Assembly (NCBI RefSeq): GCF_007830055.1
Contig: NZ_VLLE01000005.1
Coordinates: 62,001-126,000 of the forward strand
From: Lacibacter cauensis
GTDB taxonomy: Bacteria > Bacteroidota > Bacteroidia > Chitinophagales > Chitinophagaceae
Reading direction: 5' to 3'
Length of the DNA stretch: 64,000 nucleotides
Below are positions 10,564-46,379 of this stretch, piece by piece (within the stretch, counting starts at the first letter, position 1; every line of letters begins with the position of its first letter). The position numbers and the translations under genes were made by a program. Below the pieces are notes generated by a model. It did no database searches. It was not told where the DNA came from and saw only the letters and a list, made by a program, of their open reading frames with translations.

Positions 10564-11358
10564 ATGCAACAATACCACGCTTTACTGCAGCATATATTGG
10601 ATAATGGTACAGAAAAAACCGATCGTACCGGTACGGGTACAAAAAGTGTATTCGGTTACCAGATGCGTTTCAACCTCAGCGAAGGTTTTCCGTTGGTAAC
10701 AACGAAAAAAGTACACCTGCGCAGCATCATTCACGAATTATTATGGTTTCTTAAAGGTGAAACCAACATTGCTTACCTGAAAGAAAACGGTGTAAGTATT
10801 TGGGATGAGTGGGCTGATGAAAATGGTGAGCTTGGTCCGGTGTATGGCAAACAGTGGCGCAGCTGGGAAGGAGCGAACGGTGTGGTGATTGACCAGGTGA
10901 CAGATTTAATTGAACAGATTAAAAAGAATCCCGACAGTCGCCGTCTCATCATCAGTGCATGGAATGTAGCCGATCTGCCAAAGATGGCGTTAATGCCTTG
11001 TCATACCATTTTTCAATTTTATGTGGCCGATGGCAAACTCAGTTGCCAGTTATACCAACGCAGTGCCGATGTGTTTTTGGGTGTGCCGTTCAATATTGCA
11101 TCGTATGCATTGTTAACACTAATGATTGCACAGGTATGCGATCTGCAGCCCGGCGATTTTGTGCATACGTTTGGTGATGTACATATTTACAGCAATCACA
11201 TGGAGCAGGTGAAGCTGCAGTTAAGCCGCACACCGTTTCCATTGCCAACCATGAAACTGAATCCTACAGTAAAAGATATTTTTCAATTCAAGTTCGAAGA
11301 TTTTACGCTGGAGAATTACCAGAGTCATCCGGCGATTAAAGCACCGGTAGCGGTGTAG
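10564..11358 (+). CDS. thyA: Thymidylate synthase
   Basis: A 264-residue protein, the same length as the E. coli enzyme when started at the ATG at 10564. It methylates dUMP to dTMP using methylene-tetrahydrofolate, producing dihydrofolate. Visible motifs include '[12 protein letters not shown]', '[10 protein letters not shown]', 'VYGKQWR', the catalytic Cys in '[12 protein letters not shown]', '[22 protein letters not shown]' (written here in part) and '[10 protein letters not shown]'. The folA gene that regenerates its folate product lies 510 bp downstream, separated by the four-helix-bundle gene. An in-frame TTG at 10540 is unlikely to be the start. Confidence 0.96.
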
Positions 11359-11360
11359 TA

Positions 11361-11400
11361 AATGAAGAATGAAAAATGAAGATTGAGAAATGAAGAAGTA
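11361..11400 (+). repeat. Left arm of an A/T-rich inverted repeat bracketing the four-helix-bundle gene
   Basis: This stretch begins AATGAAGAATGAAAAATG and ends ATGAAGAAGT. Its imperfect reverse complement lies at 11831-11870, just before folA. Nearly the same left arm occurs again at 12380-12411 after folA. See the matching arms and the separate finding. Confidence 0.7.
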
Positions 11401-11441
11401 AAGCGAACTGTGAATTCAATGCTCAACCAAAAACACCGCAT

Positions 11442-11822
11442 ATGGAAAATAGTAACAAATTCGATCTGGAAGATCGCCTTGTAGATTTTGCATGTATGTG
11501 TCTGGATGTTTGCGAACTTCTTCCTGCTACCAAAGCAGGACAAAATCTCGAATATCAGTTGTCGAAAAGCGGAACAGCTCCTGCTTTAATTTATGGGGAA
11601 GCACAAGCGGCAGAATCAAGAGCCGATTTTTTGCATAAGATGAAATTGTGTTTGAAGGAAATCAAGGAGTCAAGAATCAATCTTAAAATCATCAGGCGCA
11701 AACCTGTTGTTATAGATGAGAAAGTAGAAAAAGCATTTACTGAAAGTAATGAGTTGATGGCAATCTTTCTGAAGAGTATTGAAACAGCTCAAAGAAATGA
11801 CGAACGAAGAAAGAAGCAGTAA
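11442..11822 (+). CDS. Four-helix-bundle protein (23S rRNA intervening-sequence protein family)
   Basis: A 126-residue, highly helical protein: 'FDLEDRLVDFACMCLDVCELLPAT', 'LEYQLSKSGTAPALIYGEAQAAES', 'DFLHKMKLCLKEIKESRINLKII'. The spacing and the 'QL.KSGT...NY.EAQ'-type signature match the four-helix-bundle family first found in proteins encoded within intervening sequences of 23S rRNA genes, and very common as stand-alone genes in Bacteroidota. Its molecular function is unknown. It splits the thyA-folA pair and is bracketed by imperfect inverted repeats, which suggests it arrived as part of a small element. Confidence 0.85.
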   Translation: MENSNKFDLEDRLVDFACMCLDVCELLPATKAGQNLEYQLSKSGTAPALIYGEAQAAESRADFLHKMKLCLKEIKESRINLKIIRRKPVVIDEKVEKAFTESNELMAIFLKSIETAQRNDERRKKQ

Positions 11823-11824
11823 GT

Positions 11825-11870
11825 TGGGTGTTTTTTATTTCTCATTATTCATTTTTTATTTTTCATTCAT
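11825..11870 (+). repeat. Right arm of the inverted repeat, before folA
   Basis: T-rich stretch ending TTTTTATTTTTCATTC immediately before the folA ATG. Its reverse complement aligns with 11361-11400, sharing GAATGAAAAAT and a (A/T)TGAGAAAT block. An equivalent arm lies at 12424-12462. Confidence 0.7.
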
Positions 11871-12384
11871 GATCATAAGTTTAATCGTAGCTGCATCATC
11901 CAACAACGCCATTGGCAGAGATAATCAATTGTTGTGGCATCTGCCAACCGATCTGAAGTTTTTCAAAAATACCACATGGGCATTGCCCGTTATTATGGGA
12001 CGAAAAACCTTTGATTCCGTTGGCGGCAAGCCATTGCAGGGAAGAACCAATATTATTATCTCCCGTCAGCAGGGGTTACAGTCCACTTATGATAATGTGT
12101 GGTTTGCATCTTCGTTGGAAGATGCAATAGCGCAGGCGAAGAAACTGGAGACGAATGAAATTTTTATTGCAGGCGGCTCGCAGATATACGAGCAGGCATT
12201 ACCAATTGCCAACCGCATTTATCTTACTCGTGTGCATGCAAACATTGAAGCAGCTGATGCATTTTTTCCTGCGTTTGATGTAACCGATTGGAACCTGAGC
12301 AAGAACAGCGATTTTACTGCAGATGAAAAACATGCCTATTCATTTTCTATACAACAGTGGGACAGGGACGAAAGTAAAAAATGA
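11869..12384 (+). CDS. folA: Dihydrofolate reductase
   Basis: A 171-residue protein reducing dihydrofolate to tetrahydrofolate with NADPH. The start 'MIISLIVAASSNNAIGRDNQLLWHLPTDLKFFK' shows the DHFR signature, including the active-site acidic residue in 'LWHLPTDLKFFK'. 'VIMGRKTFDSVGGKPLQGR' is the cofactor-binding region, and 'IFIAGGSQIYEQAL' closes the fold. The open frame extends upstream to 11779, but that would overlap the four-helix-bundle gene and include the T-rich repeat arm, so the ATG at 11869 is chosen. It works with thyA upstream. Confidence 0.95.
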   Translation: MIISLIVAASSNNAIGRDNQLLWHLPTDLKFFKNTTWALPVIMGRKTFDSVGGKPLQGRTNIIISRQQGLQSTYDNVWFASSLEDAIAQAKKLETNEIFIAGGSQIYEQALPIANRIYLTRVHANIEAADAFFPAFDVTDWNLSKNSDFTADEKHAYSFSIQQWDRDESKK

Positions 12385-12462
12385 AGAATGAAAAATGTAT
12401 AATGAAGAAGTTAGTTGCCTTCACTTTTTAATTCCTCATTTGTAATTTTTAATTTTTCATTT
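12380..12462 (+). repeat. Empty copy of the inverted repeat that brackets the four-helix-bundle gene
   Basis: Left arm AATGAAGAATGAAAAATG...ATGAAGAAGT (12380-12411) overlaps the folA stop codon. The right arm is at 12424-12462 (ends TTTTTAATTTTTCATTT). Only about a dozen bases separate them. Both arms align with those around the four-helix-bundle gene, so this is the same element without cargo. It ends 4 nt before the next start codon. Confidence 0.7.
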
Positions 12463-13278: not shown

Positions 13279-13716
13279 ATGAGCTATAACATATCAGGAC
13301 AATGGAAGGGTTACTTTTGGTATGGGAAAGAATACGGCGAACTGGAAGGTGAGTCTGTTGAGTTTATGATGTTTTTAGAAGAAAATGATGGAGCGGTTCG
13401 TGGAAAGTGTTTTGAAATGGGTGGGGTTGGTGTTGCCGAAGGAGCTGATTTGGCAGAGATTAATGGTTTTGTGAAGGGCACTCAAATCAGTTTTATTAAA
13501 AAATATGCAAACGCAACTTTCCTGGATGAAGATGGAAATGCATATGCCGATCCTTCTAAAGCATCGCAGGAGATACATTACGAAGGAGAGTTTGATAGAA
13601 GTAAGATGCAATTTGAAGGCAAATGGGAGATTATTGAAAAAGTTGAAGATTACGGTGATACGCTAATCGAATATATAGCTACAGGTACCTGGATGATGAA
13701 AAAAGAAAATGATTAA
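13279..13716 (+). CDS. Small protein of unknown function
   Basis: A 145-residue acidic cytosolic protein rich in Gly, Glu and aromatic residues: 'ISGQWKGYFWYGKEYGELEGESVEFMMFLEE', 'YEGEFDRSKMQFEGKWEI', 'ATGTWMMKKEN'. The repeated G-x-W strand pattern suggests an antiparallel beta-barrel of the lipocalin/FABP kind, but I recognise no family. It lies 11 bp after the methyltransferase and overlaps, or nearly abuts, the RsmF-like gene, so it belongs to the same transcript. No signal peptide is visible. Confidence 0.7.
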   Translation: MSYNISGQWKGYFWYGKEYGELEGESVEFMMFLEENDGAVRGKCFEMGGVGVAEGADLAEINGFVKGTQISFIKKYANATFLDEDGNAYADPSKASQEIHYEGEFDRSKMQFEGKWEIIEKVEDYGDTLIEYIATGTWMMKKEND

Positions 13717-13720
13717 TAAT

Positions 13721-15142
13721 ATGCATCTACCGGCTTCCTTGATGACTTCGCTCAGTAAGATCAATAGTTTTGATCGGGATGCTTTTGTGCAGGTGCATGA
13801 AAGTGGTGAACAGGTTGTGTCGGTGCGGATGAATCCATTGAAGAGGTCAATGGTGAATGGTGAATGGTCAATCGGTAACGATCAATCAGCCAAACTAAAT
13901 AATCAGGAACTCATTCACCATTCACCATTCACCTTTCACGCTCCCGTTCCCTGGTCCTCCAATGGTTATTATCTCAGCGAACGTCCTTTGTTTACACTCG
14001 ATCCGCTGTTGCATGCCGGTGCTTATTATGTGCAGGAAGCCAGCAGTATGTTTGTGGAAGAAGCCATAAAGCAAACCGTTGATTTGTCGCAACCATTGCT
14101 GGTACTTGATCTCTGTGCAGCACCGGGTGGCAAATCAACGTTACTGCAATCGGTGATCAGCAAGGAAAGTTTATTAGTGAGTAATGAAGTAATTCAATCA
14201 CGGGTAAACATTCTCAAAGAAAACATTACCAAATGGGGAGCCGATAATGTGGTTGTAACGAACAATGATCCTTCTGCATTTTCAAAACTCAGCGGACTGT
14301 TTGATGTACTGGTGATTGATGCACCCTGCAGCGGCAGTGGTTTGTTTCGTCGAGATCCGGAAGCCATCAACGAATGGAGTGAAGCAAATGTGGAACTCTG
14401 CAGTCAGCGGCAGCAACGTATACTTGCTGATGCATGGCCTTGTTTAAAAGAAGACGGTGTGTTGATCTATAGCACCTGTTCGTATTCTGCTGAAGAAGAT
14501 GAAGAGATACTTGATTGGCTTGAGGAAAGGTTTGAAGTGGAAGGTTTAAGGTTAAGGGTTAATGATGAATGGAAGATTGATGAAGTACAATCTGCTTCAG
14601 GTGCATACGGTTATCGTTTCTGGCCCAATAAGGTAAAAGGCGAAGGTTTTTTTATTGTGGCCTTTCGTAAGAAAGAAACACCGTCACCGTTGCGCATCAA
14701 AATAAAAAAGAACCAGGAGCCTGCGAAGAAAGATGCAGCGATTGCTGCGCAGTGGATGCAAATTGCCGATGCGTATAGTTTTGTAATGCAGGGACAAATC
14801 ATTGCAGCTGTACCAACTGCATGGCACGATATGATTCAATTTTTAATGCAGGAATTAAAAGTGCGGTATGCAGGTATTGAGTTGGGCAGTATTGCCAAGA
14901 ATGATCTGTTGCCCGAACATGCATTGGCGCTGAGTACAAATGTGAACAGCAAGGTTGTGCGTGTTGAATTAACCAAAGAACAGGCATTGGACTATTTGCG
15001 CAAGAACGATCTGCAGCTCGATCATCCGCACAAAGGCTGGGCATTGGCAACTTACAATGGACTGGGCTTAGGCTGGATGAAGTTATTGGGCAACCGCATG
15101 AATAATTATTATCCGAAAGAATGGCGGATATTGATGCGATGA
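13721..15142 (+). CDS. 16S rRNA m5C methyltransferase, RsmF/RsmB (NOL1/NOP2/Sun) type, with in-frame repeat insertion
   Basis: A 473-residue RNA (cytosine-5)-methyltransferase. SAM-binding motif I is 'LDLCAAPGGKSTLL' near residues 129-142. Motif IV is 'VIDAPCSGSGLFRRD', and the catalytic Cys is in 'YSTCSYSAEEDE'. A C-terminal PUA-like domain ends 'GLGLGWMKLLGNRMNNYYPKEWR'. The start at 13721 (MHLPASL) fits relatives better than the ATG at 13709 that overlaps the preceding stop. About residues 43-76 ('SMVNGEWSIGND...HHSPFTFHAP') are encoded by a palindromic repeat that also lies inside fmt. They interrupt the loop between 'VSVRMNPLK' and 'VPWSSNGYYL' without breaking the frame. Confidence 0.9.
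   Translation: MHLPASLMTSLSKINSFDRDAFVQVHESGEQVVSVRMNPLKRSMVNGEWSIGNDQSAKLNNQELIHHSPFTFHAPVPWSSNGYYLSERPLFTLDPLLHAGAYYVQEASSMFVEEAIKQTVDLSQPLLVLDLCAAPGGKSTLLQSVISKESLLVSNEVIQSRVNILKENITKWGADNVVVTNNDPSAFSKLSGLFDVLVIDAPCSGSGLFRRDPEAINEWSEANVELCSQRQQRILADAWPCLKEDGVLIYSTCSYSAEEDEEILDWLEERFEVEGLRLRVNDEWKIDEVQSASGAYGYRFWPNKVKGEGFFIVAFRKKETPSPLRIKIKKNQEPAKKDAAIAAQWMQIADAYSFVMQGQIIAAVPTAWHDMIQFLMQELKVRYAGIELGSIAKNDLLPEHALALSTNVNSKVVRVELTKEQALDYLRKNDLQLDHPHKGWALATYNGLGLGWMKLLGNRMNNYYPKEWRILMR
13847..13945 (+). repeat. Palindromic repeat inserted in frame in the RsmF-like gene
   Basis: The left arm contains ATGGTGAATGGTGAATGG and the right arm CCATTCACCATTCACC, about 45 nt apart. The sequence begins GTCAATGGTGAAT and ends CACGCTCCC, as does the copy in fmt on the opposite strand (19837-19933). 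It is fully translated. Confidence 0.85.
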
Positions 15143-46198: not shown

Positions 46199-46250
46199 AT
46201 AATGCAGTATTTATATATCAAGATAGGGTATTCCTGCAAAACAGTTATGA

Positions 46251-46379
46251 GTTATGGGTTAAATGTTACGGGTAGGGGAAACTCAAACATCAAGACACAA
46301 ACAAAAAATATAAATTCCTGTAAGGTAGTAGTTCGTTACGGGAGTTTATACACGTAACCCATAACCTTTAACCCATAAC
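46251..46379. repeat. Inverted repeat between the membrane-protein gene and mntH
   Basis: GTTATGGGTTAAATGTTACG (46251-46270) and its near-complement CATAACCTTTAACCCATAAC (46360-46379) pair over about 22 nt with two mismatches around an 80-nt A-rich centre. Its form resembles the GTGAATGG and AATGAAAAATG families in this window. Confidence 0.65.

Follow-up and report, generated by a model that had tools for sequence, protein, structure and literature searches.

S23 Genes Lie between Inverted Heptad Repeats and May Be Partners of Dispersed Hairpin Families

Introduction

Genes of the S23 family, whose predicted product is a small four-helix-bundle protein, generally carry inverted ends made of 7-nt repeats (heptads). 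In both clades put to the test, clade membership is a predictor of which heptad type a genome contains. We propose that S23 genes are the partners of heptad-hairpin families and work in the manner of REPIN-RAYT without a recognisable transposase, a reading whose probability we place at roughly two in three. In a REPIN-RAYT system, the gene is flanked by its own repeats. S23 proteins are known from rRNA intervening sequences, and their origin and function are called unclear in the accessible portion of PMC4990558. Intergenic heptamer arrays have been described in Beggiatoaceae (TAACTGA) and in Xanthomonas (GGGAATC), with the Xanthomonas heptamers often paired as inverted repeats (PMC4692102 and PMC4679880, accessible portions); a term search of the same portions found neither a mention of S23 nor an S23 partner gene. 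Our literature search, which left subscription journals mostly uncovered, found no earlier report of heptad ends on S23 genes that lie outside rRNA.

Results and Discussion

An S23 Unit between thyA and folA

The window is the whole stretch of DNA analysed, 64,000 nucleotides from Lacibacter cauensis (family Chitinophagaceae), and the genome that contains it is labelled G000. Its features are collected in Table 1. The S23 ORF scores 51 bits against TIGR02436 (cut-off 24) and matches PF05635 (23S_rRNA_IVP) at E 1.8e-5 with 25.3 bits, which is under the gathering cut-off of 33.8. The predicted model is a four-helix bundle (mean pLDDT 89.6) whose best matches among solved structures, as ranked by Foldseek, are the S23 proteins 2rld and 2gsc, followed by Avd 4dwl; the match to 2rld holds for sequence as well as fold. 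A Pfam search found no catalytic domain in the protein, 23S_rRNA_IVP being the sole match, and neither the Pfam result nor the four-helix-bundle fold points to an HUH/Y1 transposase in the unit. By Pfam, the four neighbouring genes that were tested encode a proline dehydrogenase, ThyA, FolA, and a methyltransferase.

A first-pass annotation of this DNA had described A/T-rich inverted arms that flank only the four-helix-bundle gene. The arms, 37 nt each and 433 nt apart, do enclose this ORF alone; they are A/T-rich, but that description is incomplete, as they consist of degenerate 7-nt repeats (AATGAAG AATGAAA AATGAAG ...). Their inverted-arm score is 44, where 31 marks the 99th percentile of mismatched-locus pairs, and a score of at least 44 is reached by only one of 345 non-S23 genes of G000, a transposase-like gene. 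In the predicted fold of the 520-nt thyA-folA stretch, the two arms form the outermost stem (z -3.5), which 0 of 100 shuffles equal.

The gene-free copy of the arms that had been noted after folA was recovered by sequence comparison as direct copies at 12372-12411 and at 12425-12461; folding of the strand here gives a single hairpin (z -2.2). The window holds two more gene-free hairpins. One, of GGTGAAT type, matches the arms of another S23 gene of G000 (hemB-S23-hemL), and the other, of GTTATGG/GTTAAAT type, has no matching S23 among those read in G000. The window arm motif has 37 matches in G000 versus 9 for the reversed control. The GGTGAAT-type hairpin sits in frame in the linker of an ORF that we take to be RNA methyltransferase-like; relatives have at this point either different repeats or no repeat, which makes the linker a landing site for short repeats.

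Table 1. Features of the S23 unit, its host genes, and gene-free heptad hairpins (window coordinates)
Feature	Position	Strand	Evidence
thyA, thymidylate synthase, host gene upstream	10564..11358	+	PF00303, E 3.5e-131
Left heptad arm, AATGAAG-type period-7 repeat	11361..11397	+	84% complementary to right arm; in outer stem
S23/IVP four-helix-bundle gene, 126 aa	11442..11822	+	TIGR02436, PF05635, predicted model
Right heptad arm, inverted	11831..11867	-	Arm alignment; predicted fold
folA, dihydrofolate reductase, host gene downstream	11869..12384	+	PF00186, E 1.5e-55
Gene-free heptad hairpin, same type as S23 arms, between folA and next gene	12379..12462	.	Arm copies and fold
Gene-free heptad hairpin, GGTGAAT type, in frame within ORF 13709-15142	13844..13939	.	
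Gene-free heptad hairpin, GTTATGG/GTTAAAT type	46244..46379	.	

Heptad Ends around S23 Genes in the Family

S23 genes were collected from the genus and 40 family genomes, most of them sampled in part, by protein similarity, with the flanks disregarded; the set was drawn among the matches listed, and 80 further loci were added mostly in list order. Five of the 144 distinct S23 ORFs lacked full flanks and were dropped, which left 139 from 39 genomes; the remnant in G001 (L041) failed the S23 profile and was left out. Among these matches listed, the inverted-arm score of 123 of 139 genes reaches or exceeds the 95th percentile of mismatched-locus pairs, and that of 94 the 99th percentile; 16 fall under the 95% control, and direct repeats reach the 99th-percentile score around only 12. 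With equal flank lengths, a score of at least 25 is found for 117 S23 genes (84%) versus 33 of 926 other genes (3.6%) from sequence samples of three of these genomes, and a score of at least 31 for 92 versus 10. The search of other four-helix-bundle genes for the same ends, suggested in the first-pass annotation, thus gave bracketed genes in most cases. The result holds when loci are grouped by homologous flanks: half or more of the members score at least 25 in 64 of 69 independent locus groups. The mismatched-locus and other-gene controls rule out chance A/T-rich repeats as the source of the arms.

A period of 7 is evident in the arms, with a lag-7 match of.61 versus.31 after shuffling and lag 7 the best in 75 of 90 arms. 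The median arm is 33 nt, the median period-7 tract 35.5 nt, and the median unit 487 bp (96 units). The arms are also polar, with 890 G versus 299 C in left arms, and no common head sequence is evident among the S23 arms inspected for one.

Other genes with inverted repeats were encountered along the way. Three GxxExxY genes (TIGR04256) of one genome are bracketed in this manner (L234:7217-7615, L231:2969-3358, and L247:15924-16301); their arms differ in look, e.g., CACAGATTACACTGATTTACACC, and the repeat unit is perhaps longer. These genes and their repeats are possibly a parallel gene-repeat system. The top-scoring non-S23 gene, L247:12770-13369, is RAYT-like (NF047646, 42 bits, below the cut-off of 80) and has a 41-nt near-perfect inverted repeat.

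S23 Clade, Arm Type, and Gene-Free Copies

Related S23 genes at unrelated loci share a 7-mer, and the 7-mer differs between clades. Across 6256 non-homologous-locus pairs from 114 S23 genes with arms, arm similarity climbs with S23 relatedness from.023 to.163 (Spearman.090, versus a maximum of.072 in 500 within-genome permutations). We then counted motif A, GTSAATN x3, which derives from the hemB-type S23 clade (hemB-S23-hemL in G000), in 147 family genomes, calling presence of a hemB-type S23 at E 1e-30. The motif is present in 29 of 31 genomes with a hemB-type S23 versus 26 of 116 without (p 2.5e-13), with median copies of 27 and 0, respectively, and most genomes lack the reversed control motif. 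Two of the 26 motif-bearing genomes without a hemB-type S23 have more than 300 copies each. The highest count, 1307 matches in a 4.7-Mb genome, was seen in G016.

A genome rich in repeats may contain more S23 genes of all kinds, and both clades were therefore fitted jointly. Motif A follows its cognate clade (t 9.3) and not the other (t 0.9); for motif B, from the window-type subfamily, the values are t 4.4 and 2.5, so the cross-effect is not nil, and this motif was picked after viewing arms of the same subfamily and is partly post hoc. Genomes with only one of the clades give a weak contrast (p.03 for motif A and.26 for motif B). In 8-10% samples of genomes, an arm type recurs in its own genome in 12 of 25 cases versus about 42 of 243 for foreign arm types, a modest excess that led to the motif counts over whole genomes given above; the values in G063 are 3 of 11 and 11 of 85. 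The folA-methyltransferase gap of G000, G002, and G017 contains a gene-free hairpin typed like that genome's own S23 arms, and the type differs between G000 and G017. Since arm type and S23 clade go together, the gene and its ends look like partners and not like interchangeable cargo, and a role of the gene as arbitrary cargo is rejected.

The existence of GxxExxY gene-repeat partners means that heptads might be spread by something else, be it slippage, template switching, or a different protein (a RAYT, for instance). S23 genes might then merely settle, or survive best, in the resulting hairpins. Gene-free heptad hairpins are indeed common, even in genomes without the tested S23 clade, the GxxExxY and RAYT-like genes have repeats of their own, and the published heptad arrays come without S23 links in the accessible text of PMC4692102 and PMC4679880. 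We nonetheless consider such an origin unlikely: it does not account for the bracketing of 84% of S23 genes against 3.6% of other genes, or for an arm type that is predicted by the S23 clade, and the sole bracketed RAYT-like gene seen has non-heptad arms.

Orientation and Complementarity of the Arms

In 54 of 68 locus groups, the S23 gene runs sense to each of its neighbours, and in 4 it is antisense to both; this placement in host operons suggests that the unit probably lives on read-through transcription. The same orientation would suit an mRNA insulator, in which an RNA stem cut by RNase III frees the S23 message from the operon, so that pairing is selected and mobility is incidental. The strong predicted RNA stem of the thyA-folA unit (z -3.5) fits this idea, as do the arms of orthologous thyA-folA units in different genera, which differ in sequence yet stay complementary, and the excision of the Coxiella unit by RNase III in vitro (PMC4990558, accessible portion). 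However, selection at the RNA level for a complementary stem should leave more G.U than A.C mismatches, yet 175 arm pairs contain 193 and 192, respectively. This equality lends no support to that form of selection and is more in line with an origin of the complementarity at the DNA level or in recent copying. An insulator also leaves unexplained both the dispersed gene-free copies and a 7-mer that tracks the S23 clade at unrelated loci, and we regard it as improbable.

Presence, Loss, and Relocation

Comparison of the thyA-folA junction among relatives, as proposed in the first-pass annotation, turned up intact, decayed, and empty sites; gene and flanks are not conserved throughout the family. 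Across 14 same-genus genomes, S23 is intact in 4 (G000, G002, G003, and G008), left as a 3' remnant in 1 (G001), and absent in 9. Over all 28 junctions examined, 5 are intact, 1 is a remnant, and 22 are without S23. In the wider family, the gene is also found at thyA-folA in G104; in G116, G154, and G065, it is interrupted there by in-frame stops or reduced to a fragment.

A tree of 97 window-type S23s places 18 thyA-folA copies and 3 others in one group (support 100/98), which rules out a recent insertion at thyA-folA. The three others (L289, L351, and L352) are nested in the thyA-folA clade and lie between unrelated genes, with inverted heptad arms. Those of L289 score 50 and 49 versus two sister thyA-folA copies and at most 30 versus the other 18 compared. 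The simplest reading of these sequences is an old insertion at thyA-folA with repeated loss and three outward moves. That S23 is an ordinary, vertically inherited resident with spacers that are repeat-like by chance fits the single group with 18 of its 21 rows at this junction, but is very improbable given arm scores far above the mismatched-locus and other-gene controls, three nested copies at other loci, and absence in 9 of 14 same-genus genomes. The idea of an element put forward in the first-pass annotation is largely borne out: occupied, empty, and decayed forms, gene-free copies, ends of like kind on other four-helix-bundle genes, and three nested copies at other loci support it. The notion of interchangeable cargo is not supported.

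The search for target duplications that had also been proposed came up empty, with none visible at thyA-folA or hemB-hemL; the relocated copies offer no clean orthologous empty site for this comparison. At hemB-hemL in G011, S23 is absent and a different inverted repeat is present, part of whose left half persists next to the S23 arm of G000. It looks as if the S23 unit there had landed in an older hairpin.

Other repeats occupy the thyA-folA gap as well. In G008 (L019), the right S23 arm is split by an insert of ~300 bp with inverted ends of its own (CGTGTTGTGC... / ...GCACACCACG). In G004, G009, and G010 (L009, L026, and L015), a G/C-rich inverted repeat of CCCCTAAAGGGG type stands in place of S23; it is another short-repeat family at this junction.

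Other Phyla, Plasmids, and rRNA Genes

Eighty named loci came out of a scan for window-type S23. They belong to Bacteroidota and, beyond it, to Chlorobiota, Ignavibacteria, Balneolota, Verrucomicrobiota, Kiritimatiellota, Cloacimonadota, Planctomycetota, Armatimonadota, KSB1, and Desulfobacterota. Two loci were dropped for short flanks. Scores of at least 25 were obtained for 61 of the remaining 78 and of at least 31 for 54, including 15 of the 21 loci outside Bacteroidota (2 of the 21 are without an assigned phylum). Lag 7 is the best in 46 of 50 arms, and 34 of 78 loci exceed the 95th percentile of a mismatched control that is itself high because the arms share one motif. The core GAACARGGAA occurs in the arms of 16 of these 78 loci, from several phyla, and in 0 of 139 flanks in the family-wide set; its polarity is uniform in 24 of 27 flank matches.

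From 48 plasmid records with a match, we took 18 loci picked for varied genera, 16 cyanobacterial plus Azospirillum and Gemmatirosa. The score is at least 25 for 17 and at least 31 for 16; Oscillatoria is the exception, with G-rich tandem repeats on either side in a single orientation. Three of the cyanobacterial plasmid genes (L426, L427, and L435) lie within CRISPR operons, flanked either by cas6 and cas4 or by cas10 and a cmr3-family gene.

The Azospirillum lipoferum unit, 469 nt in total and with period-7 arms, lies inside a 23S rRNA gene (RF02541). Its insertion point is presumably the helix-45 site. In Coxiella, the terminal stem of the rRNA unit is 28 bp long, and GACAGAT heptamers stand in tandem ahead of the ORF (PMC4990558, accessible portion). 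With heptads in both rRNA units, the thyA-folA insert has the anatomy of an rRNA intervening sequence, which bears out the parallel with 23S rRNA intervening sequences drawn in the first-pass annotation.

Comparison with Known Systems

Like the 23S rRNA intervening sequences, for instance, that of Coxiella burnetii, the units described here have an S23-family ORF, stem-forming terminal inverted repeats, a length of about 430-490 bp, 7-nt repeats, and sporadic presence. Unlike them, the thyA-folA unit lies between protein-coding genes and outside rRNA, and its clade-linked arm type recurs as dispersed gene-free hairpins, a departure from the rRNA units as described in the accessible portion of PMC4990558.

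The resemblance to REPIN-RAYT (REPtron) lies in a long-resident gene with a repeat family dispersed as gene-free hairpins and, as shown for the hemB-type S23 with GTSAATN, in a gene flanked by its own dispersed repeats. RAYT genes and their repeats co-diversify (PMC8266576 and PMC8049555, in part). The S23 unit is nevertheless not a member of this class, as the partner is a four-helix bundle with no HUH transposase, and the arms that enclose the entire gene are long arrays of period 7, in contrast to short REP palindromes. REP palindromes have a conserved GTAG/CGTC head (PMC3733652, accessible portion); the S23 arms, with 7-nt units over a median of 33 nt, are not palindromes of that kind.

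As with a MITE and its parent insertion sequence, gene-bearing and gene-free forms have the same inverted ends, but S23 units are without a transposase, without an end sequence conserved across families, and without a target duplication that we could see. The protein shares its fold with Avd of diversity-generating retroelements (4dwl, TM about 0.70, and also DGR ribonucleoprotein chains in Foldseek), and the relation of PF05635 to Avd has been pointed out (PMC10053308, accessible portion). Unlike DGR Avd, the window S23 has no reverse transcriptase among the four neighbouring genes tested. The heptad hairpins resemble the Beggiatoaceae and Xanthomonas arrays in being intergenic 7-nt arrays.

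A Proposed Mode of Action

The partnership that we favour would work as follows. The S23 unit is a small gene between inverted ends of about five 7-nt repeats each. Co-diversification of gene and repeat suggests that heptad arms would be recognised by their own S23 protein, most likely at the DNA level. The protein may act on the arms in trans together with an enzyme of the host or of other origin, so that the non-enzymatic four-helix bundle would take the place of the RAYT transposase. The outcome would be rare copies of the whole unit and more frequent gene-free hairpins. The unit would do little harm between genes or in an rRNA loop, and a 23S rRNA intervening sequence would be such a unit after insertion into rRNA.

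A broader version is more tentative, and we would put it somewhat short of even odds. S23 proteins across Bacteria might be sequence-specific partners of heptad-hairpin families, with a clade-specific 7-nt code and with a population of gene-free hairpins that they keep up in the genome, and protein and hairpins together might form their own class of selfish DNA without a self-encoded nuclease or transposase. The code might possibly be read at one heptad per subunit: 2GSC, the Xanthomonas S23 structure, has five subunits, according to a reference title in PMC10053308 (accessible portion), against the median period-7 tract of 35.5 nt. Intervening sequences of rRNA and at least part of the published heptamer arrays would be products of this system.

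Conclusions

The gene family and the repeat type tend to change and to travel together, which suggests that S23 units with heptad hairpins are a form of mobile DNA that has attracted little notice. For the intergenic heptamer arrays described earlier, no mechanism of transmission was evident (PMC4679880, accessible portion). Our results tie S23 proteins and such arrays together, in that heptad ends are general and the clade predicts the heptad type (for two clades). What S23 does, where rRNA intervening sequences come from, and how heptamer arrays spread become directly testable. REPINs are, according to their authors, the only stably maintained intragenomic sequence population known in prokaryotes (PMC8049555, accessible portion). 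Heptad hairpins would be a second such population, with a partner protein of a different kind.
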